In this document: piece by piece, positions 19,498 through 60,254 of the stretch
How the letters are laid out: the number at the start of each line of letters is the position of its first letter
Position numbering within the stretch: the first letter of the stretch is position 1
From: Streptomyces humicola
GTDB taxonomy: Bacteria > Actinomycetota > Actinomycetes > Streptomycetales > Streptomycetaceae
Reading direction: 5' to 3'
Assembly: GCF_024436035.1 (NCBI RefSeq)
Contig: NZ_JANFNG010000006.1
Location: 124,001 to 188,000, forward strand
Length of the DNA stretch: 64,000 bases
The notes under the pieces: generated by a model
What the model was told of the DNA's origin: nothing
Database searches by the model: none
The model's input: the letters and a program-made list of their open reading frames with translations, nothing else
Position numbers and translations under genes: made by a program

Positions 19498-19695
19498 CCG
19501 GCACTCGAAGCGGTGGGCGCACGGCCGTACTTTGAGGGGTCCGCTTCCGCAGGGCCGCCTCCACCCCTTCCCGCGGCCAGAACAGCGAGGCAATGAAGCC
19601 CGAACGCCTCGGGAGAACAGGGCCTTCTCGACGAGGGCCGTCCGCTCAGTGCCACTGACCAGCCGCGGGACGAACTGAAAATCGTCGGAACCCAC

Positions 19696-19944
19696 GCACT
19701 TGTAGACGTGCAATAACACCTCGCCACTGTTCACCCCACCATCACCGCCCCTACCTCTGCCCCAGTTGCAGCACCTGTGCAGTCTCGTCCACCGCCCGTC
19801 CACTAGAGCCGGACGCCAAAGGTGATCAAAACCTGCAGCCGTCGGGACATGACCAGGTCAGGGGCCCTGGCCACACAGCTTCGCCACTGAAACTAAACCG
19901 CTAGCCTACGCATTGCGATGCATAGAACGAGGGCGTCCGATCTG
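19696..19944. repeat. Degraded att-like repeat, copy B'
   Basis: The partner of the 404-651 repeat, same orientation, closing the right side of unit 1. On the minus strand, about 19878-19922 reads as a decayed tRNA-Thr 3' half (ATCGCAATGCGTAGG, then GGTTTAGTTTC). It is followed by a hairpin CCAGG-8 nt-CCTGG (about 19854-19871) where intact sites have their terminator. The C-terminal-looking reading VDETAQVLQLG is conserved from copy A. The preceding 19498-19695 stretch after the exporter gene shows no gene. Confidence 0.6.
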
Positions 19945-20007: not shown

Positions 20008-20052
20008 TGGAGCCGCCTGAGGGAATCGAACCCTCGACCTACGCATTACGAG
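20008..20052 (-). repeat. att site: 3' half of tRNA-Thr(CGT), left copy
   Basis: 45 bp on the minus strand covering the anticodon loop (CTCGTAA), 3' anticodon stem, variable loop, T-arm (GGTTCGATT) and acceptor end GGCGGCTCCA of a threonine tRNA. No D-arm or 5' acceptor (which should start GCCGCC) lies upstream, so it is not a working gene. It is what integration into a tRNA leaves behind. It differs from the right copy at 60210-60254 at only two positions, and those two pair with each other at the base of the T-stem. It marks the left edge of the 40.2-kb block. Confidence 0.88.
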
Positions 20053-20489
20053 TACGGGATTGATCGTGCCATCCCGTGCTGCGCAAGCCTGTCACATCTC
20101 GTTTTGCCTGATCAGAGTGTATGAGCAACGTTCGCTCATGATGCCTCGTACTGGCAGGTCCAAAGGCGTCCGCGCTCCCCCTGCGCTCCCCACCGTCCTC
20201 CGAGGTACTTCATCTGTGCCGCCCCGGGTCCAGCGGAAGCACGACAACGCGGACATGACCGCTCTGCCTGCAGGTAGCCTGCTGCGTCTGGACTCGGAAC
20301 CCCACCCGTCGAGCGCTCCAGTCACCATCCGACCGTTCAGATTGTAACGGTCCCACAAGAATGCCAGCGCCCATAACCTCGATCCGTTCTCGCCTGCGGC
20401 TCTCCACGGGGGTGCGGCCGCCCGGCTGACGTCGTATCGGCTTGGCGCTTTCCGAACCCGAGGCAGAGTAGGACGGCGGGAGCTCCATC

Positions 20490-20560: not shown

Positions 20561-20662
20561 GTTCCTGGGAGCGGACGAAGCCGAGACACCTCGGCATCGA
20601 GCAACTGGCGACCTCGGCATAGACAACAAATTGTGGATGAGAAGACCTCAAGCGCCTAGTCG

Positions 20663-21249
20663 GTGGGGATGACCATCGCTGACGCCATCCAACCCGCCGT
20701 GCTCCTGGTCCCGGCATCGGCCTGGACACCAGCCACCAAGCCGGACGACAAGGCCCGCGACGGCGCCTGGGTTGCCGAGCTCGCCGGTGACGTCCTGAAG
20801 GGCTGGCCGAAGGGCATGCGGCTGATCGTCCGCAAGGAACGCTCGTATTCCGGCGCCCAGTTGCGCCTTACTGACGCCGACGGCATGCGGCTGACCTGCT
20901 TCGCCACCAACGCCACCGGCACACCGATCGGGCGCCTGGAGCTGCGGCACCGCCAGCGCGCCCGCGCTGAGGACCGCATCCGCGCCGCCCGCGACACCGG
21001 CCTGCGCAACCTGCCCCTGCAAGATGCCGCCCAGTACGCATCCGGCTGGAGATCATCCAGCTCGCGCTCGACCTGCTGGCCTGGATGCCCATGCTCGCCC
21101 TGACGGGCCAGGCCCGCCTGTGGGAACCCAAGCGCCTGCGGCTGCGGCTGTTCTCCGCCGCCGCCCAGCTGGTTATCAACGGCCGCCGATACCTCCGCCT
21201 CGCCCGCCACTGGCCCTGGACCGACGTGATCACCAACGCGTTCGAGTAG
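20663..21249 (+). pseudogene. IS1380-family transposase, C-terminal remnant with frameshift
   Basis: The plus strand encodes LRLTDADGMRLTCFAT, then LELRHRQRARAEDRIRAARDTGLRNLP, which is the C-terminal part of IS1380-type DDE transposases including the E-D-R region. Around 21045 the frame shifts. The neighbouring frame continues with LEIIQLALDLLAWMPM and EPKRLRLRLFSAAAQLV to a TAG at 21247-21249, the family's normal end. The N-terminal half with the catalytic Asp residues is missing. It is non-functional. The following 21250-21480 stretch shows no gene. Confidence 0.75.
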
Positions 21250-21480
21250 CTGCAGGCCTTGCCGAACCAAGGCTGACGAGCAGCGACGTACTGTCCCGAC
21301 GAGCACCCCACCATCTCCGGAGCCGTGGAACCCGGCGCCCACCCGACGCGTCAGCCGGGCCTTCGGCTTGCCCACCCCAGCCCAAACAAGGCGAATCGGT
21401 CCGACGGATGAACCAACGGAAACATCGAGGTTAACGCCACAGGACGGCAGTTCGCTACCCCCATCCCATGTGGGCTGACT

Positions 21481-21501
21481 GACACCACTCGCAGTGGTGT
21501 C
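21481..21501. terminator. perfect hairpin, possible terminator or operator
   Basis: GACACCACT, three bases, AGTGGTGTC: a perfect 9-bp inverted repeat between the transposase remnant and the first gene of unit 2. No T-run follows on either strand, so it may be a protein-binding site rather than a terminator. Confidence 0.4.
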
Positions 21502-21520
21502 TCCGCTATCCGTTTCGCCC

Positions 21521-21550
21521 GATTAATCGTGAGGAGATGCCTGATTAATC
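21521..21550. promoter_or_regulatory. paired palindromic boxes GATTAATC
   Basis: The palindrome GATTAATC occurs at 21521-21528 and again at 21543-21550. The start-to-start distance is 22 bp, about two helical turns, so both boxes face the same side of the DNA. AT-rich palindromes stand out in this GC-rich sequence and look like an operator for the gene pair starting at 21633. The island's LuxR-type regulator (25497) is a candidate binder, but nothing shows that directly. Confidence 0.45.
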
Positions 21551-21561
21551 CTGAAGTGAAG

Positions 21562-21618
21562 GCGAGGGAAAGCCGGTAAGTCCTCCTGAAAGGAGTGTCA
21601 GTTCTCGACTTCCCTCGC
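21562..21618 (+). promoter_or_regulatory. structured leader or extended stem before 21633
   Basis: GCGAGGGAA (21562-21570) pairs perfectly with TTCCCTCGC (21610-21618), enclosing about 39 nt that include an inner hairpin CTCCT-GAA-AGGAG. If transcribed, this forms a closed leader ending 14 nt before the GTG start at 21633. That start has no Shine-Dalgarno, and a -10-like TATGCT at 21619-21624 would allow leaderless transcription instead. I do not recognise a known riboswitch class. Confidence 0.4.
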
Positions 21619-21632
21619 TATGCTCACGCTCC

Positions 21633-22430
21633 GTGCCTACGGAAAGATCGTTTAAGCACATCCGTCGTGGAGCGGGATCACCGTTGCTGCTCGTACAGGG
21701 GACAGCGGCAACGCATCTCCATTGGGGAAAGCGACTGATGTCGCTGCTCGCCGCTTCGTTCGACGTGGTGGCCTACGACCATCGCGGTGTTGGATACTCG
21801 GCGTTGGCGTGCGAGTCCTTCACAGTGGCTGATCTTGCCGACGATGCCGTTGGCCTGCTCGACGAGCTCGGTTGGCCGCGTGCGCACGTCATGGGGGTGT
21901 CGATGGGGGGCGTTGTCGCTCAGGAGTTGGCTCTGCGCCATCCGAACCGGGTGGAGAGTCTGCTGCTCGGCTGCACCCACACGGGCGGGGCCGGTTCACC
22001 GGCCCTTGCCTCGGATGTACTGGCTTCGGCCATCGTCCACGGCGACAAGCCGGCGACGCTGCGCAACATCTTTCGCGTCGGGGTAAAGGACCCGGAGCGG
22101 GTGCGCCGGGGCGCCTGGGAGGAGTACCGCGATGCCGCTCTGACACTGCCAGTGGACCCGCGGACGACGGCTCTGCAGATTGGTGCAGTCGCTCTTCACA
22201 GCACCGCTGAGCGACTGCACCGAATCAATGTGCCGACGCACGTCGTACACGGCGACACCGATCGCCTCGTTCCTGTCGAGTCGGGTGAGAAGCTGGCCTC
22301 CACCATCCCCGGCGCCCATTTCACGGTGCTGTCGGCAGGTCACTTCTTCTGGCTGGAACAACCCGAGCAGACGGCCAAGTTGGTGGCGGAGACGTGCTCT
22401 GCACCATCGCGCGAGGAGGTCCCACTGTGA
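21633..22430 (+). CDS. alpha/beta hydrolase
   Basis: 265 residues of the alpha/beta hydrolase fold. The nucleophile elbow is GVSMGG (Ser near residue 91), the oxyanion region is LLVQGTAATHLHW, the acid lies in HGDTDRLVP, and the catalytic His is in SAGHFFWLEQP. The family hydrolyses esters, lactones or thioesters. It is the first gene of a two-gene unit with the NRPS that follows, whose GTG overlaps its stop (GTGA). It could release a product, trim an intermediate or unmask a precursor. Start GTG 21633 has no Shine-Dalgarno, which fits a leaderless message (see the upstream element). Confidence 0.85.
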   Translation: MPTERSFKHIRRGAGSPLLLVQGTAATHLHWGKRLMSLLAASFDVVAYDHRGVGYSALACESFTVADLADDAVGLLDELGWPRAHVMGVSMGGVVAQELALRHPNRVESLLLGCTHTGGAGSPALASDVLASAIVHGDKPATLRNIFRVGVKDPERVRRGAWEEYRDAALTLPVDPRTTALQIGAVALHSTAERLHRINVPTHVVHGDTDRLVPVESGEKLASTIPGAHFTVLSAGHFFWLEQPEQTAKLVAETCSAPSREEVPL

Positions 22431-25400
22431 CACATGGCAACTTGTGGCGGACGTTCGTCCGGGTCGCCGGTTCCCACCCCGACCGCGAGGCTTATGTTGG
22501 CCCGGAGGGAGCCCTCGACTACCGGCAACTTGCTGTTGCCGCAGCCATGTTGGCGGACCGTCTGTGCATGCGGAAGGTCGGTGCGGGTGATCTCGTCACA
22601 GTCGAGATGCCCGTCGGCTCGGGCTTCGTCGTCGGTGTGCTGGCCGCAGTGGCGGTCGGCGCGACGTATCTCCCGATCGATGTGTCGGGCCCCGCAAGGC
22701 GGCGTGAGCAGATCCTGGAGGACGCCCGGCCCTCGGTTGTTCTCCAGGCCGACGACGATGACCTCCGTGCGGCCCTGCGCCTCTCGGAAACATCGGCCGC
22801 ACCCGGCTCACCAGACCCGGGGCGGCACGATCCCGCCACGGACGATGATGATCCGGCCTACGTCATCTACACCTCCGGTTCCACCGGCAGGCCCAAGGGT
22901 GTCGTGGTTCCGGCACGCGGCGTCCACAACCTGCTGGCGGCGTTCCAGAGCCGCGCGCCGCTGAGCCCGGGAGCGCGGCACAGCTGGTGGACGTCGCCCG
23001 GGTTCGATGTCTCCGTGTACGAGATGTGGAGTGCGTTGCTGAACGGCGGGACCGTGGTGCCTGTGCCGGACGCGCACCGCCGTGACATCGACGCCACGCT
23101 CGACTACTTGGCCGAGCACCACATCGACTCGGCGTACCTGCCTCCTCAGTTCCTCCCTTCGCTGCGCGACCGGGTCGTGAGCGGTGGTCCCGCCCCCCGG
23201 CTGAGGCGTCTTCTGACCGGCGTCGAGCCGATTCCCATCGGACTGCTGGTTGATCTGCAGTCATGTATGCCCGATGTGGTCGTCGTCAACGGGTACGGCC
23301 CGACCGAGACCACCGTGTGCGCCACGCTGTACACGGTTCCCGAGCGATGTACCGAACCGCAGCGGCGGACACCGATCGGATCGGTGATCGAAGGCAACCG
23401 CGGCTTCGTGCTCGACGATCGCCTCGCTCCGGTCGGTCCGGGACAGCCCGGAGAGCTGTGCGTCGCCGGCCGTGGCCTGGCCCTCGGCTACCTGCACGAT
23501 CCGAGCCGAACCGCCGAACGCTTCGTGGCCGCCGCCGACGGCGACGGTCTGATGTACCGGACCGGTGATCTCGTCGTTGCCGACGTCGAGGGCGAGTTGA
23601 CCTTCCTCGGCAGGATCGACGATCAGCTCAAGATCGACGGCGTCCGGATCGAACCGGCGGAGACAGAGGTCGCGCTCAGGCGGCTCGACGAGATATCGGA
23701 CGTCGCCGTCCTCGCGCGGCCGACGAGCCCTGGTGGCCCGTTGGTGCTGACGGCCTTTGTGGTGCTTTCCGACGCCGTCGGCGAAGCCACCGGCGACCTC
23801 TGGACCGTGATCAGGGCGCGCCTGGCCGAGGAGCTTCCCGCACAGGCCGTACCCCGGCGCTTCTTCGCGCTGGAACGGATACCGATGACCAGCGACGGCA
23901 AGCTCGACCGCGCCGCGCTTCCGCAGCCGAACGACGCGCCGGCGCGCCCGGCCCGGAACGAGCACGAGCGAACCGTCGAGGACGCCTGCCGCGCTCTGCT
24001 TCCCCACACACCGCCCTCGGCACTGGACCTCGGGTTCGCCGAGATAGGTGGCGACTCGCTGCAGGCGGCGCGGCTGTCCATCGCCTTGCGATCGGCGACC
24101 GGCCGAGCCGTTACGGCCGCCCACGTTCTCGAAGCGGAGACCTTGGCCGACCTGGCGGCGAAGGTATCGGCGATGCCCGTCGACGACGCGTCGGACGACG
24201 AGAACGCGGGACAGAGCGAGGCACCCTTGACGCCGGGCCAGGCCGGGATGTGGGCAGCAGAGCTGATCAGCGCTGCTCCCGGGTCCTTCCACGAGTCCGT
24301 GGCACTGGAGCTGACCGGCCCCGTCGACCCCGACCGAACAGCCCGGGAGCTGACGGCCGTTCTCAACCGGCACGTTGTCTTTCGCGGATGCATCGACGAG
24401 GGCGGCGCGCTGTTCGTGACCGATGGTGAACCGGTCTCCGTCGCGGTGCGGTCCGTGGCGCCCGGGGAGAGCCTGGAGCACGGCTGGCAGCAGTTGCTGG
24501 CCGAATTGCAGCGCCCGGCTTTCGACGTCACCAAGGGGCCGCTCGTCCGCGCTGCCGTGCTCGCCGCACCGGACACGGTCCGCGTGCTGCTCGTCTGGCA
24601 CCATCTGGTGATCGACGCATGGAGCGCTCGGGTCGTACTCGAAGAGCTCACGGCCGCACTGAGCGGCCATGCCCCTTCCCGCTCGGAGGAGCATGGCCAT
24701 GCCGACTATGCGCACAGGCAGCGGAGTTACCTCGATTCCACCGAGGGCAAGCTGGCCGTGTGCGCCGCGGCCGACCGGATACGCGCCTGGTTGCCGCCGC
24801 TAGGTGAGGGAGAGAGCGGTCCGGTACAGAGCTCCTGCAGTGTCACGGAATTGGCGGTTGGCCCACGTGTCTGGTCCAAGGTGCGCGACTGCGCGCGGCG
24901 CAACGGCACAACGGTGTTCGCGGTCACCTTGGCTGCAACTCTTGAGCCGGTGTGTCAACTGGCGGAGACCGGCGGGCGGTTCGCGCTCACAGTGGCTGAC
25001 CGGAACGAACCTGCCGACGCCGCCGCCGCAGGATACTTCCTGACGACCGTTCCGTTCGGCCTGCCTCCCGGAGACGGTCGCGTCACCCCTGGCCCGAACG
25101 ACGCACTGCGCCGGGCCCGCGAGGTGATCGCCGAGGCGCGCGAGATGTCGAGAGTGCCCTTCCCCGCGTTGATGGCCGAACTGGGCCTGCGCGAGACCCG
25201 ATCCGTTGCACCGCTGGTCATTGCGTGGGACCGCGATCCGGCCACCGCGCTCTCTGTCCCGGGCTGTACGGTGCGGTCCCTGTCCGTAAGCCCGCTGGGA
25301 GTGCGCTGGCCGTGGACCGTTCTGTTCACAGACCGAGCGGATCTCGGAATGTCCGGACGGATCGAGTTCCCGCCGTGGGTGCCTGGAGACCGAGTGGCAC

Positions 25401-25453
25401 GCTTCGGCGCGGAATTGGAATCGATGCTGGACGAGTTCGCGTCCTTGGCATGA
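22427..25453 (+). CDS. NRPS, A-PCP-C
   Basis: A 1008-residue NRPS. The adenylation domain spans about 1-505 (YTSGSTGRPKG near 147, FDVSVYEMW, GYGPTETT, YRTGDL, SDGKLDRA). The carrier domain has IGGDSL near 543, and the condensation domain occupies about 600-1008 with HHLVIDAW near 724. The pocket keeps the conserved Asp (FDV), but the remaining specificity residues do not match a code I know, so no substrate is given. An order ending in C means the condensation domain joins its own residue to something held on another protein. Start GTG 22427 follows GAGGAGG. It is the first large module of unit 2. Confidence 0.92.
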   Translation: MTHGNLWRTFVRVAGSHPDREAYVGPEGALDYRQLAVAAAMLADRLCMRKVGAGDLVTVEMPVGSGFVVGVLAAVAVGATYLPIDVSGPARRREQILEDARPSVVLQADDDDLRAALRLSETSAAPGSPDPGRHDPATDDDDPAYVIYTSGSTGRPKGVVVPARGVHNLLAAFQSRAPLSPGARHSWWTSPGFDVSVYEMWSALLNGGTVVPVPDAHRRDIDATLDYLAEHHIDSAYLPPQFLPSLRDRVVSGGPAPRLRRLLTGVEPIPIGLLVDLQSCMPDVVVVNGYGPTETTVCATLYTVPERCTEPQRRTPIGSVIEGNRGFVLDDRLAPVGPGQPGELCVAGRGLALGYLHDPSRTAERFVAAADGDGLMYRTGDLVVADVEGELTFLGRIDDQLKIDGVRIEPAETEVALRRLDEISDVAVLARPTSPGGPLVLTAFVVLSDAVGEATGDLWTVIRARLAEELPAQAVPRRFFALERIPMTSDGKLDRAALPQPNDAPARPARNEHERTVEDACRALLPHTPPSALDLGFAEIGGDSLQAARLSIALRSATGRAVTAAHVLEAETLADLAAKVSAMPVDDASDDENAGQSEAPLTPGQAGMWAAELISAAPGSFHESVALELTGPVDPDRTARELTAVLNRHVVFRGCIDEGGALFVTDGEPVSVAVRSVAPGESLEHGWQQLLAELQRPAFDVTKGPLVRAAVLAAPDTVRVLLVWHHLVIDAWSARVVLEELTAALSGHAPSRSEEHGHADYAHRQRSYLDSTEGKLAVCAAADRIRAWLPPLGEGESGPVQSSCSVTELAVGPRVWSKVRDCARRNGTTVFAVTLAATLEPVCQLAETGGRFALTVADRNEPADAAAAGYFLTTVPFGLPPGDGRVTPGPNDALRRAREVIAEAREMSRVPFPALMAELGLRETRSVAPLVIAWDRDPATALSVPGCTVRSLSVSPLGVRWPWTVLFTDRADLGMSGRIEFPPWVPGDRVARFGAELESMLDEFASLA

Positions 25454-25496: not shown

Positions 25497-26546
25497 ATGC
25501 TGCGTACACATAGCGCCGACGAGGGTGAATGTATCGGAGAGGTCGATTCGGTCGAGCTTTACCGGCTGATGGTCCGTCAACGGCACTTGGACCTGTCCGC
25601 GGCGGCGGACATGTTGGGCTGGAGCGAGGGGCGTACCGCTGCGGCCGCCGAGTGGCTCAGCAAGTACGAGCTGCTGGTCCCCCTGCTCGGAGAGGGAAAC
25701 ACCTTCGGCGTCTCCGCCCCCCGTAGCGCGGCCTCCCGGCTGCTGGTCCCGCTGGACCAGCAGATCGAACGCCTCGAACGCGAGGCGGAACATCTCCGCG
25801 CCGACCTCGGCCGCTATCAGGTCACGTACCACGAGGCCATCCACGAAACCGAGGACGGGAACGAGTTCAGCACGATTGCCGGGCTCGACGCCATCAATGC
25901 CGAGTTGGAGGTCGCGGCCGCGCGCTGCACGGAGGAAGTGCTCACGGTGCAGCCCGGCGGCGGCCGCAACGCCGAGAGTCTGGCCGCGTCCTGGGAACCC
26001 ACCCGCGCCATGCTGGAGCGCGGTGTCCAGATGTGCACCATCTATCAGCATTCAGCCCGCTTCCATACTGCCACCCGGCAGTACGTCAAACAGGTCACCA
26101 GTCACGGCGGGGACGTGCGCACCGTCGGCGAATGCACCGATCGGCTGATCATTTTTGATCGCAAGATTGCCTTCATTCCGGCCCGCGGTGACCGTCAGAT
26201 CGCGCTCGTCATCCACCAGCCGGCCGTCGTCAAGTTCCTGGTCTCCGTCTTCGAGCGGTTCTGGAATGACGCGACGCCGTTCTCGGCCCACAACCGGGTG
26301 TCCGAAGTGAAGACCCTGCTGTCCGACGTCCGCATGTCCATCATCAAGCTGCTTGCCGAGGGCGAGACCGACAACGCCATCGCCCGCCGCATGGGAGTGA
26401 GCGTACGGACCTGCCGTGGCCATATCGCCAAGATCTACGAGGAGTTCGGCGCGCGCAGCCGCTGCCAGCTGGGCGTGCTGATTGCCACCTCAGGGATCCT
26501 GGACGCCGACGATGTCCATGAGGAGGGCAACGCCGCTGCCGGCTGA
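25497..26546 (+). CDS. LuxR-type transcriptional regulator with TrmB-like N-terminus
   Basis: 349 residues. The C-terminus has a LuxR helix-turn-helix (LAEGETDNAIARRMGVSVRTCRGHIAKIY). The N-terminal 60 residues look like a winged helix of the TrmB kind (LDLSAAADMLGWSEGRTAAAAEWL), followed by a coiled region (IERLEREAEHLRADL) and a middle domain. This layout recurs as a pathway-specific regulator in actinobacterial metabolite clusters. It has no ATP-binding site. It sits 43 bp after the NRPS and meets the CYTH-HAD gene tail to tail. The AT-rich boxes upstream of 21633 are a possible target. Start ATG has GGGGGAAGA upstream. Confidence 0.85.
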   Translation: MLRTHSADEGECIGEVDSVELYRLMVRQRHLDLSAAADMLGWSEGRTAAAAEWLSKYELLVPLLGEGNTFGVSAPRSAASRLLVPLDQQIERLEREAEHLRADLGRYQVTYHEAIHETEDGNEFSTIAGLDAINAELEVAAARCTEEVLTVQPGGGRNAESLAASWEPTRAMLERGVQMCTIYQHSARFHTATRQYVKQVTSHGGDVRTVGECTDRLIIFDRKIAFIPARGDRQIALVIHQPAVVKFLVSVFERFWNDATPFSAHNRVSEVKTLLSDVRMSIIKLLAEGETDNAIARRMGVSVRTCRGHIAKIYEEFGARSRCQLGVLIATSGILDADDVHEEGNAAAG

Positions 26547-30919: not shown

Positions 30920-31837
30920 ATGGGGTCGCCGCTGGACGGCTGGTACGAAAAGGCAGGAGTGCGGACCGACCCGCGGCGCGTGATCGGGGATGAACTGGAA
31001 GCGGGAAAGACCCTCTTTCCTGAGAAGCTGATCCCGTACCTGGACCATCCGCTGGTGCGGGCGCTGGACCCGCGGCAGCGGTTCGCCCTCGTAACCCGGC
31101 ATCTCTACCAGTACATGCTGTTCACGATGCACTTCGAGACGAGCGTGGTGAACCGCGCCGCCGGTCGCATTGCGGACGGCACCTCGGGGCTGCACCTGCC
31201 GTCCTCGGTGCGCCTGGACGCGTACAAGATCTACTGCGACGAGGCCTATCACGCGCTGTACAGCCTCGACGTGGTGGAACAGGTGAGCGGCGCGACCGGC
31301 ATCGAGACGCCCGACTACGACTTCGCGCCGTTCCTCGGCCGCCTCGACGCAATCGGCGCCGAGGTCCTGCCCGGCGAGCCCGTCCTTGTGCAGCTGCTCC
31401 AGGTGGTCGTCTTCGAAACGCTAGTCACCTCGATCCTCAAGGACATACCGAAGGACCCCTTCGTGGTCGGCACCGTCCGCGAGGTCGTCCGTGATCACGC
31501 CGAGGACGAAGGCCGCCACCACGCCTATTTCGCCGCCTTCTTCAAGGAACTCTGGCAGGGCATGAGCCCGGCACTCCGCGTGCGGGCCGCGCGCTGCCTG
31601 CCGGAGCTGGTCAGCCGCAGCCTCACGCCCGACCTGGTGCCCGTGCGTACCTCCCTCGGCGCGGCAGGGCTGGGCGACGCGGCCGTGCGCGAGATCGTCA
31701 CCGACTGCTATGCCCCCGAGCAACTGCGTCGCGGCGTCCGGTCTTCCGCGCGGCACACCTTTCACCTGTTCGAATCCGTTGGAGTGCTGGACGTGGCCGG
31801 GGCGCGGGACGCCTTCACGTCCGCCGGGTTGTTGTGA
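30920..31837 (+). CDS. AurF-type diiron N-oxygenase
   Basis: 305 residues with the carboxylate/histidine ligands of the AurF (p-aminobenzoate N-oxygenase) family in order: FETSVVNRA near residue 72, DEAYHALY near 108, a FETLVTS near 170, and EDEGRHHAYF near 192. Family members use a non-haem diiron centre and oxygen to oxidise amines to hydroxylamine, nitroso or nitro groups, or occasionally to hydroxylate carbon. It is 20 bp after LysE and 25 bp before the carbamoyltransferase, in the same direction as the diaminopropionate genes. N-oxygenation of the diaminopropionate side-chain amine or a derivative is therefore the leading, untested, idea. Confidence 0.85.
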   Translation: MGSPLDGWYEKAGVRTDPRRVIGDELEAGKTLFPEKLIPYLDHPLVRALDPRQRFALVTRHLYQYMLFTMHFETSVVNRAAGRIADGTSGLHLPSSVRLDAYKIYCDEAYHALYSLDVVEQVSGATGIETPDYDFAPFLGRLDAIGAEVLPGEPVLVQLLQVVVFETLVTSILKDIPKDPFVVGTVREVVRDHAEDEGRHHAYFAAFFKELWQGMSPALRVRAARCLPELVSRSLTPDLVPVRTSLGAAGLGDAAVREIVTDCYAPEQLRRGVRSSARHTFHLFESVGVLDVAGARDAFTSAGLL

Positions 31838-31861
31838 CAACGCCTATAGGAGATGTGAGAC

Positions 31862-32842
31862 ATGGTGGCAACAGGCCGATCCCTGTTGGGACTGCCTGAG
31901 CGTGCTTCGGAGTCGGGGATCTTCTCCCTGGCCGACCTGGAGGACAAGGAACTGGACCAACTGGTGCATCGGTCCCGTGAGTTCTTCACCGACCGGACGG
32001 GTCACGACGAACCGCTGCGGGGGAAGATCGCGGGCATCCTGTTCACCAAGACGTCCACCCGCACCCGTACGGCGTTCACCACCGCTGCGCTGCGCCTCGG
32101 CGGCCAGGTCATCAGCTACGGCCCGCACGACCTCCAGCTGGAGACGGGCGAGTCCGTGGAGGACACCGGCCGCGTCTTCGGGCGGATGCTCGACATCCTG
32201 GTCGCGCGCACCGCGGGCCCCGTGGCCCGGTTGAAGACCCTCTCCTGGGCCGGCGGCATTCCCGTGGTGAATGCCATGGGTCAGGAGGAGCACCCCACCC
32301 AGGGCATCTGCGACCTCGCAACCATGGGCCTGCACTTCGGCGCCCTGGACGGCATCAAGGTGCTGTATGTCGGCGAGGGCAACAACAGTGCCGTGGCGCT
32401 GACGCACGGCCTGGTCCACTACACCGGGATCGAGCTGACCCTGCTCACCCCGCCCGGCTACGGCGTGCCCGAGGCCGAGTTGGTCCGTGCCCGCGCCCGG
32501 GCCGCCGAACGCGGCTCCTCGATCCGGCAGGTCCACGCGCTCGACGAGGCCCCCGACGCCGTCGACGTGGTGTACACGGCCCGCTGGCAGACCACCGGGA
32601 CATCGAAGCCCAACGCGAACTGGCGTGAGGAATTCCGCTACTTGCACATCGACGGGGCGTTCATGAGCCGCTGGCCGGGTGCCGTGCTCATGCACGACCT
32701 GCCGGCCCATCGCGGTGACGAGATCTCCTCGGAGGTACTGGAGGGCGACCGGTCGCTAGCCTGGACCCAGGCGGAGATGAAGCTCACCAGCGCCATGGCG
32801 GTTCTGGAGGCTCTGATACAGCCGCGCCAGGGAAGCCAGTGA
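31862..32842 (+). CDS. ornithine carbamoyltransferase-family enzyme
   Basis: 326 residues of the aspartate/ornithine carbamoyltransferase family. The carbamoyl-phosphate site is intact (TSTRTRTAF near residue 58 and EEHPTQ near 140), followed by the Rossmann-type VLYVGEGNNSAVAL. The acceptor-side motif, HCLP in ornithine enzymes, reads HDLPAHRG here, so the cysteine that contacts ornithine is Asp. The neighbours make L-2,3-diaminopropionate, so transfer of carbamoyl to it (giving ureidoalanine, as proposed for the homologous step in viomycin-type pathways) is a reasonable inference. Start ATG 31862 follows AGGAGATG. Its stop overlaps the next start (GTGA). Confidence 0.88.
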   Translation: MVATGRSLLGLPERASESGIFSLADLEDKELDQLVHRSREFFTDRTGHDEPLRGKIAGILFTKTSTRTRTAFTTAALRLGGQVISYGPHDLQLETGESVEDTGRVFGRMLDILVARTAGPVARLKTLSWAGGIPVVNAMGQEEHPTQGICDLATMGLHFGALDGIKVLYVGEGNNSAVALTHGLVHYTGIELTLLTPPGYGVPEAELVRARARAAERGSSIRQVHALDEAPDAVDVVYTARWQTTGTSKPNANWREEFRYLHIDGAFMSRWPGAVLMHDLPAHRGDEISSEVLEGDRSLAWTQAEMKLTSAMAVLEALIQPRQGSQ

Positions 32843-33855
32843 TCAAGGATTCCGTTTGCGATCTCGTCACCGATGACGTCTTCCTGAGGTTCACCGACGT
32901 CCTCCCGGGAAGCGAGCTGTATCTCAAGATCGAGGGACTGAATCCGGCTGGCTCCGTGAAGCTCAAGACGGCGGTCGGGCTGATCGAGGACGCCGAGCGG
33001 CGCGGTCTGCTCTCTCCGGGCGGACGCGTCGTCGAGTCCTCGTCGGGGAACCTGGGCGTCGCCCTGGCCATGGTCTGCGCCGCGAAGGGCTACGCCTTCA
33101 GCTGCGTGACCGACGTCAACGCCGCACCGCACAATGTGGCGTTGATGCGTGCCCTCGGCTCGGCCGTCGCAGTGGTGGACCAGCGGGACGCGAACGGGGG
33201 CTTCCTGGGCACGCGCATCGCCCTCATCGAGCGCATGCTGGCGGACGATCCCCTGCTGGTGTGGCCCAATCAGTACGCCAACCCCGCCAATCCGAGGGTC
33301 CATCAGACCCGTACAGCCGCAGCGATTCTTGCCGCGATAGAGAACGTGGACTTCCTGTTCGTGGGCGCGGGCACGACCGGCACCCTGACCGGGTGCGCCA
33401 GGTACTTCCGTGAGGTCTCGCCCCACACCAGGATCATCGCCGTCGACACGCTCGGCTCGGTCACCTTCGGAACCCCCGCGGGTCCCCGTCACATTCCCGG
33501 CCTGGGTACCAGCCGCCGTCCCGAGATCTGCCGCCCCGGCCTGGTCGACGAGGTCGTGCTGATCGAGGAGACCGAGGCGGTACGCACCTGCCGGATGCTC
33601 GCCCGGCGGCACGGATTGCTGGCCGGTGGCTCGACCGGCTCGGTGTTCACGGCGGTGCATCGGGCCGCGCCCAACATTCCCGCCGGCTCCCGGGTGGTGG
33701 CCATCGCACCGGACATGGGCGAGCGCTATCTCGACACCGTGTACGACGACGACTGGGCCGCCGCTCGCTTCGGCATCGACCCCACTCCTGCTGTCAACAC
33801 GCTTGCGCGCCGGCAGAGCCCCGAGAAGGAGACACCTTGTTCACGTTCGATGTAG
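32839..33855 (+). CDS. sbnA: SbnA-like diaminopropionate synthase
   Basis: 338 residues of the cysteine-synthase-like PLP family. The Schiff-base lysine is in NPAGSVKLKTAVG near residue 40, the substrate loop is VVESSSGNLGVALA, and the phosphate loop is VGAGTTGTLTG. SbnA condenses O-phosphoserine with glutamate to give N-(amino-carboxyethyl)-glutamate, the first step to L-2,3-diaminopropionate. The presence of an SbnB gene immediately downstream, overlapping it by 19 bases, makes this assignment firmer than a generic cysteine synthase call. The GTG start overlaps the carbamoyltransferase stop. The gene symbol is by homology to the staphyloferrin B pathway. Confidence 0.88.
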   Translation: MIKDSVCDLVTDDVFLRFTDVLPGSELYLKIEGLNPAGSVKLKTAVGLIEDAERRGLLSPGGRVVESSSGNLGVALAMVCAAKGYAFSCVTDVNAAPHNVALMRALGSAVAVVDQRDANGGFLGTRIALIERMLADDPLLVWPNQYANPANPRVHQTRTAAAILAAIENVDFLFVGAGTTGTLTGCARYFREVSPHTRIIAVDTLGSVTFGTPAGPRHIPGLGTSRRPEICRPGLVDEVVLIEETEAVRTCRMLARRHGLLAGGSTGSVFTAVHRAAPNIPAGSRVVAIAPDMGERYLDTVYDDDWAAARFGIDPTPAVNTLARRQSPEKETPCSRSM

Positions 33856-34850
33856 TCAGCGGTACGGTGGCCCGCGAGGTCATCGCCGAGTCACGGCAGG
33901 ACATCCTCCAGGTCGTGAAAGAGGCCTACCTGGCCCACGAGTCGGGGCAGTCGATCAACCCCAACAGCTACTTCCTGCGGTTCCCCGAGAAGCCCTCGGC
34001 ACGGATCATCGCGCTGCCCGCGTACCTCGGCGGCGATCACGACGTGGCCGGCATCAAGTGGATCGCGAGTTTTCCGGACAACGTCGCGCGCAACGTTCCC
34101 CGTGCCTCCGCGGTACTCCTGCTGAACGACTATGCCACTGGGTATCCGTTCGCCTGCCTGGAGGCGTCCCAGATCAGCGCCGCCCGCACCGCGGCCTCCT
34201 GCGTCCTGGGCGCCTCGACCCTGCACGGGTCCACCCACGCGGAGCGGATCGCTGTCGTCGGCGCGGGTGTGATCGCGCGCAACATCCTGGAGTTCTTCAC
34301 CGCCGGGCAGTGGAAGATCGGCGAGTTCGCGGTGTACGACCAGGTGCCCGGCTACGCGGATGCGCTGGTGTCGTACTCCCGCGAAACGCTGGGGATTCCC
34401 GCGACGGGGGCGGACAGCTTGGAGTCCGCGGTGCGCGGCGCGGACGTGGTCGTTCTGGCCACGACGGCTGCCACGCCCTACATCAGCGGCCTCGACGTCT
34501 TCTCCGCCAAGCAGACGGTGCTCAACATCTCGCTGCGCGACATCGCCCCCGAGATCGTCCTGGCATCGCACAACGTGGTCGACGACTTCGACCACTGCCT
34601 AACCGCCCAGACCTCCCCGCACTTGGCCGAACAGGCCTGCGGCCACCGCGACTTCATCGACGGGACCCTGGCCCAGGCGGTGCTCGGCAAACTGGAGTTC
34701 GACGACAGCAAGCCGCGCATCTTCTCCCCCTTCGGGCTGGGCATCCTCGATCTGGCCGTGGGTTCCTTCATCTACCGGCGCGCGGTGGAGTCGGGGCGTA
34801 CGACCCCGATCGACGGGTTCTTCGCAGAGACCGAGCGCTGGCAGAAGTGA
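33837..34850 (+). CDS. sbnB: SbnB-like dehydrogenase (ornithine cyclodeaminase family)
   Basis: 337 residues with the ornithine cyclodeaminase/mu-crystallin fold: an N-terminal SINPNSYFLRFPEKPSARIIALPAYLGG segment, then AGIKWIASFPDN with the substrate lysine, and a Rossmann NAD site AVVGAGVIARNILEF near residue 140. SbnB oxidatively cleaves the SbnA product to L-2,3-diaminopropionate and 2-oxoglutarate. Start TTG 33837 is preferred because GAGAAGGAG lies just upstream and it gives the normal length. The two genes together mean the cluster can make its own diaminopropionate building block, for an NRPS module or for the carbamoyltransferase next door. Confidence 0.9.
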   Translation: MFTFDVVSGTVAREVIAESRQDILQVVKEAYLAHESGQSINPNSYFLRFPEKPSARIIALPAYLGGDHDVAGIKWIASFPDNVARNVPRASAVLLLNDYATGYPFACLEASQISAARTAASCVLGASTLHGSTHAERIAVVGAGVIARNILEFFTAGQWKIGEFAVYDQVPGYADALVSYSRETLGIPATGADSLESAVRGADVVVLATTAATPYISGLDVFSAKQTVLNISLRDIAPEIVLASHNVVDDFDHCLTAQTSPHLAEQACGHRDFIDGTLAQAVLGKLEFDDSKPRIFSPFGLGILDLAVGSFIYRRAVESGRTTPIDGFFAETERWQK

Positions 34851-60209: not shown

Positions 60210-60254
60210 TGGAGCCGCCTAAGGGAATCGAACCCTTGACCTACGCATTACGAG
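60210..60254 (-). repeat. att site: 3' half of tRNA-Thr(CGT), right copy
   Basis: 45 bp, minus strand, from anticodon loop to CCA, 43 of 45 identical to 20008-20052. The two differences (T-stem base pair G:C there, A:T here) compensate each other. No 5' half of the tRNA precedes it, so the intact gene should be further right, past the window. The two sites bound a block of about 40.2 kb. Confidence 0.88.

Follow-up and report, generated by a model that had tools for sequence, protein, structure and literature searches.

A candidate tandem operator and a putative leaderless promoter in front of a hydrolase–NRPS operon

We interpret the leader of the hydrolase–NRPS operon in the window (the whole 64,000-nt stretch of DNA that was analyzed) as an ordinary, strain-specific promoter, and we place about even confidence in this reading, under which a tandem operator would be followed by a leaderless promoter of the form GTGTCA-18-TATGCT. 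The two GATTAATC palindromes, spaced by 22 bp, would lie on the same helical face and serve a dimeric regulator as a tandem operator. The hydrolase–NRPS message probably starts at its own start codon: the candidate promoter would direct transcription to begin at or within a few nt of GTG 21633, yielding a leaderless or nearly leaderless message. Such a start appears most likely because of where TATGCT is placed and because of the leaderless data from S. coelicolor. The perfect 9-bp stem between the boxes and the gene would then lie in untranscribed promoter DNA, where it would be incidental or itself a protein site. Protein binding, start site, and effect on expression are here predictions from sequence. 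An earlier note on this DNA had offered an operator followed by an RNA switch, or a leaderless promoter; the operator and the leaderless promoter hold up as reasonable, and the RNA switch does not find support. For cluster expression, the analysis marks where the operon promoter and its candidate operator probably lie. There is no need to assume an RNA switch, and no general picture is changed. The features are collected in Table 1.

Table 1. Features of the leader and the adjoining genes, in window coordinates
Feature	Position	Strand	Remark
Transposase relic (DDE group 1), including the right end of the element	20655..21436	+	Left limit of the intergenic DNA
Perfect palindrome GACACCACT-CGC-AGTGGTGTC	21481..21501	.	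Possible second operator
Direct repeat unit 1	21517..21537	+	Holds box 1, GATTAATC (21521-21528)
Direct repeat unit 2	21539..21559	+	Holds box 2, GATTAATC (21543-21550)
9-bp stem, 5' arm GCGAGGGAA	21562..21570	+	
Inner hairpin CCTCCT-GAA-AGGAG(T)G	21582..21597	+	
Candidate -35 GTGTCA	21595..21600	+	4 of 6; spacing to the -10 of 18 bp
9-bp stem, 3' arm TTCCCTCGC	21610..21618	+	
Candidate -10 TATGCT	21619..21624	+	Sole TANNNT on the + strand of 21421-21645
Alpha/beta hydrolase	21633..22430	+	GTG start without Shine-Dalgarno; Abhydrolase_1 7.2e-28
NRPS (adenylation, carrier, condensation)	22394..25453	+	Listed frame overlaps the hydrolase stop
LuxR-type (GerE) regulator	25497..26546	+	GerE 3.1e-8

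The DDE group 1 (IS1380) transposase relic scores 31.6 bits against DDE_Tnp_1_4, under the Pfam cut-off of 34.7. Among 11 related loci aligned to it, the alignment starts at 20655 in seven and stops at 21420 in seven, and an ATCGAGG motif in its last ~16 nt (to ~21436) was recognized by eye in three of the four related loci that could be read. Given that the relic ends at ~21436 and the operon begins at 21633, a leader of ~196 nt lies between them. The G+C content of this region is 56%, compared with 64-75% in the window's 2-kb steps. On a larger scale, the operon sits inside a segment bounded by copies of a tRNA-Thr 3' end. These copies, at 20009-20056 (98% over 48 nt) and 60211-60254 (95% over 44 nt), flank 40 kb; the full tRNA-Thr(CGT) gene is located elsewhere in the genome (G000:C66:201781-201856), adjoined by a phage-type integrase (C66:201105-201455), and a tRNA scan of the window itself found none. 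Such an arrangement resembles elements integrated in tandem at a single tRNA gene. A 284-bp repeat (368-651 and 19661-19944, 79% identity) has its latter copy immediately to the left of the tRNA copy at 20009-20056. Farther downstream, positions 30920-34850 hold in a row an AurF-like oxygenase gene, an ornithine-carbamoyltransferase-like gene that scores under its NCBIfam cut-off, and SbnA/SbnB (2,3-diaminopropionate) genes, which suggests that the product may contain a diaminopropionate unit that is carbamoylated or N-oxidised.

Each GATTAATC box forms the core of a 21-nt direct repeat whose units are 81% identical, and the 22 bp from start to start bear out the earlier description of two boxes two helical turns apart. 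The sequence was found twice in the window against 0.05 expected, and none of 100 shuffles held two copies. Across the 7.07-Mb genome it occurs at six places, two of which are the pair before the hydrolase gene; for six sites placed at random, ~0.00025 pairs no more than 60 bp apart would be expected. Dinucleotide shuffles of 21421-21640 contained the same 8-bp palindrome more than once in 4 of 5,000 cases, a figure that, like the other chance figures for the boxes, was computed after the site had already been pointed out. The recurrence of an 8-bp palindrome is in itself not unusual for the window, which contains 12 other pairs with starts at most 60 bp apart, all of them G+C-rich. Even when the prior choice of the site is allowed for, the box pair is hardly chance, because the chance expectations for genome and window and those from the shuffles fall far below what is observed. 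Its near flanks also fit a direct-repeat arrangement better than an inverted one: 6/8 versus 2/8 for the nearest bases, 7/14 versus 2/14 for seven bases on each side (a direct agreement that 565 of 12,880 placements in the region reach), and 11/24 versus 4/24 for 12 bases on each side. Taken together, the excess over chance and the direct-repeat flanks make an operator plausible, as had been proposed.

The box centres lie 86.5 and 108.5 bp upstream of GTG 21633, a long distance for a classical activator and more than would allow direct block of the candidate promoter. The spaced GATTAATC pair appears in one of 297 family genomes, namely the window's own, and by eye the other four places in that genome have no flanking sequence in common with the pair. 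We know of no described site with this sequence, and a literature text search for it as an operator returned titles that concern other systems. As for the protein that might bind the boxes, the LuxR-type regulator encoded at 25497 is a guess. At a threshold of 1e-30, proteins of its kind are present in 109 of the 121 family genomes searched; besides the window's own copy, the top-scoring relative is 42% identical, and none exceeds 46% among the matches listed. The box sequence was found at 0 of 25 loci around LuxR-type proteins (flanks of ~1.5 kb), a set that includes the window's own locus, whose flank stops short of the boxes. Literature on this regulator type with binding sites was sought, and none was found.

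The palindrome at 21481 was considered as a possible second operator. Its exact sequence occurs only here among 200 genomes. With up to two mismatches it is present in 27 of the 200, and a tally by hand of 36 places in forward orientation, next to 37 with the reversed control, shows no enrichment of the kind expected of a recurring operator.

In agreement with the earlier note, GTG 21633 has no Shine-Dalgarno sequence, sought as a match of at least 4 nt at a spacing of 4-13 nt. Such a sequence precedes two of the eight ATG/GTG/TTG codons in 21501-21700, ATG 21537 (GTGA) and TTG 21684 (GGAG); the former, which GAGGAG also abuts, opens a frame of three codons. The candidate -10 abuts the stem and leaves 8 nt to GTG 21633, a gap on the long side. 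A TANNNT placed 5-9 nt before the start arose in 378 of 10,000 shuffles, and one with a 4-of-6 -35 in 46 of 10,000, figures that flatter the candidate promoter because the placement test was picked after the site had been seen. A single TANNNT at some place in the region is no more than expected (shuffle mean 1.35), the scan of 21421-21645 found none between 21421 and the stem, and a stricter promoter scan (9 of 12) returned no promoter. The leaderless alternative gains modest support from the region's only TANNNT, which stands 8 nt before the GTG. For S. coelicolor, PMC4895711 gives TANNNT as the -10 consensus, NTGACC as the -35, leaderless mRNAs from 21.0% of primary start sites, and, within secondary-metabolite clusters, leaderless transcripts from 5 of 49 primary start sites.

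As we read the sequence, no standard start codon of the open frame other than GTG 21633 retains the N-terminal residues common with G027, the one family genome with a closely related gene pair. An alternative start at ATG 21620, from which translation would have to change to the frame of the hydrolase (MLTLRAYGKIVKHIRRGAG), provides an equally plausible N-terminus. The profile scores of the two versions, 130.6 versus 130.3 for TIGR02427 and 90.7 versus 91.9 for PRK14875, are too close to favor either, and their Pfam scores differ by no more than 0.1 bit. By eye, the N-termini of G027 and of 18 of 19 hydrolase relatives (L043 was left out) fit both starts.

The stem itself is as the earlier note had described it: GCGAGGGAA and TTCCCTCGC pair exactly across 39 nt, enclose the inner hairpin, and end 14 nt from the start codon. 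Its outer seven pairs have a probability of 0.98-1.0 in five folded stretches. For 21530-21660 by itself, the minimum-energy structure differs and the centroid retains the stem. Perfect 9-bp inverted repeats arose in 46 of 5,000 local shuffles with a loop of 30-50 nt and in 148 of 5,000 with a loop of 3-60 nt, and the window contains 41 inverted repeats of this kind (arms of 9, loop of 3-60) compared with a shuffle mean of 37.1. As a departure from chance, the stem is much weaker than the box pair. The bare stem has a fold z-score of -2.40, with 3 of 200 shuffles folding equally well, and 21521-21633 has one of -1.87 (9 of 200); with context the score weakens to -1.45 for 21556-21640 and -0.47 for 21530-21660. 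No Rfam family was found in the leader at the gathering threshold, and a search of 394 family genomes revealed no second copy of the stem. A lax Rfam scan returned two weak matches, at 21077-21168 (-) and 21252-21307 (+), both within the relic and under gathering scores; these were rejected.

Hydrolase matches at 1e-60 were limited to two among the 394 family genomes, the window's own and that of G027, where hydrolase and NRPS genes also lie side by side (70% identity over 239 aa and 66% over 1005 aa). G027 additionally carries relatives of four further window genes, with best segments of 72%, 69%, 67%, and 58%. This is the only ortholog pair found: hydrolase relatives on plasmids (621 records) were all below 60%; a search of genome contigs gave 19 relatives of the hydrolase with a best identity of 39% over most of the query (L043 reaches 54% over 24 residues); and the only NRPS match at 1e-200 among 296 class genomes was the window's own. 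Conservation of the boxes in an orthologous promoter would support a tandem operator. Before the G027 gene, GATTAATC is absent, as are its 7-base parts across the 60 kb taken; the 250 nt before the gene hold no inverted repeat of at least 8 bp (loop 3-59), and nowhere does a match with the window's leader exceed 8 nt. A tblastn search at 1e-10 found no LuxR relative within 60 kb around the G027 pair. The G027 gene instead has GGGGGAAGC, a G-rich Shine-Dalgarno-like run, before its ATG, and the protein read from that ATG has eight more residues before the shared part. Boxes and stem are therefore not a conserved part of the gene pair, as judged on one relative. A search with the leader recovered only itself in its own genome and no match on plasmids. 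In the 393 remaining family genomes the one hit, 27 nt long, was in G034, where it covers the 21481 palindrome in a setting that looks unrelated; its E value of 7e-4 per genome means that ~0.3 would be expected over 394, and it ranks as chance.

Other readings of the leader must be weighed against this evidence. It is possible, if doubtful, that the region is decayed DNA, a rearranged flank between the relic and a promoter-less operon in which boxes and stem are functionless and the hydrolase N-terminus is eroded. The end of the relic at ~21436, the low G+C content, the longer G027 protein with its Shine-Dalgarno-like run, and the equally good N-terminus from ATG 21620 are all consistent with decay. 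The hydrolase and NRPS frames, however, are open and well matched to those of G027, and repeated boxes are unexpected of random remains. Less probable still is that the boxes are not an operator at all and instead pair with each other, in RNA or DNA, as a hairpin of 8 bp plus AGG/CCT. Identical palindromes are always able to pair, and the RNA fold of 21521-21633 does pair them, yet their flanks, both the nearest bases and 12 on each side, agree as direct rather than inverted repeats; we regard this possibility as quite improbable.

An RNA element would require a leadered transcript that starts upstream of 21562, with the stem and inner hairpin acting in cis as a switch, an attenuator, or a control of ribosome access. 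The exact stem, its stability in isolation, its high pair probabilities, and the pairing of an AGGAG run with CTCCT in the inner hairpin make this conceivable. Nevertheless, the distance from the AGGAG is 24 nt to ATG 21620 and 37 nt to GTG 21633, more than would let it serve either, and there is no TANNNT between 21421 and the stem. The same gene pair in G027 lacks a comparable repeat, the window holds as many such repeats as its shuffles do, and folding scores weaken with context. With no Rfam match, no relative found to have the stem, and unremarkable folding scores, we consider an RNA element unlikely. A more elaborate version, in which the stem with its paired AGGAG would be a previously undescribed, lineage-restricted RNA element that senses the cluster product or a precursor and gates hydrolase–NRPS translation under a regulator that reads GATTAATC pairs, is highly speculative.

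The promoter reading, with its tandem operator and leaderless start, can be set beside known systems. Tandem palindromic operators of dimeric regulators are known for biosynthetic clusters, and the leader resembles them in having two like sites two helical turns apart ahead of an operon, with a regulator gene downstream. The closing stem and inner hairpin before an operon recall the structured leaders and riboswitches of Rfam, although the leader differs from these in matching no family at gathering score and in having no other copy that we found. Leaderless genes of S. coelicolor favor AUG (76.4%), according to PMC4895711, whereas the start here is a GTG and the transcription start site is predicted. 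With the leaderless promoters in that data set (PMC4895711), the leader shares a TANNNT just before a start codon without Shine-Dalgarno and a weak -35.
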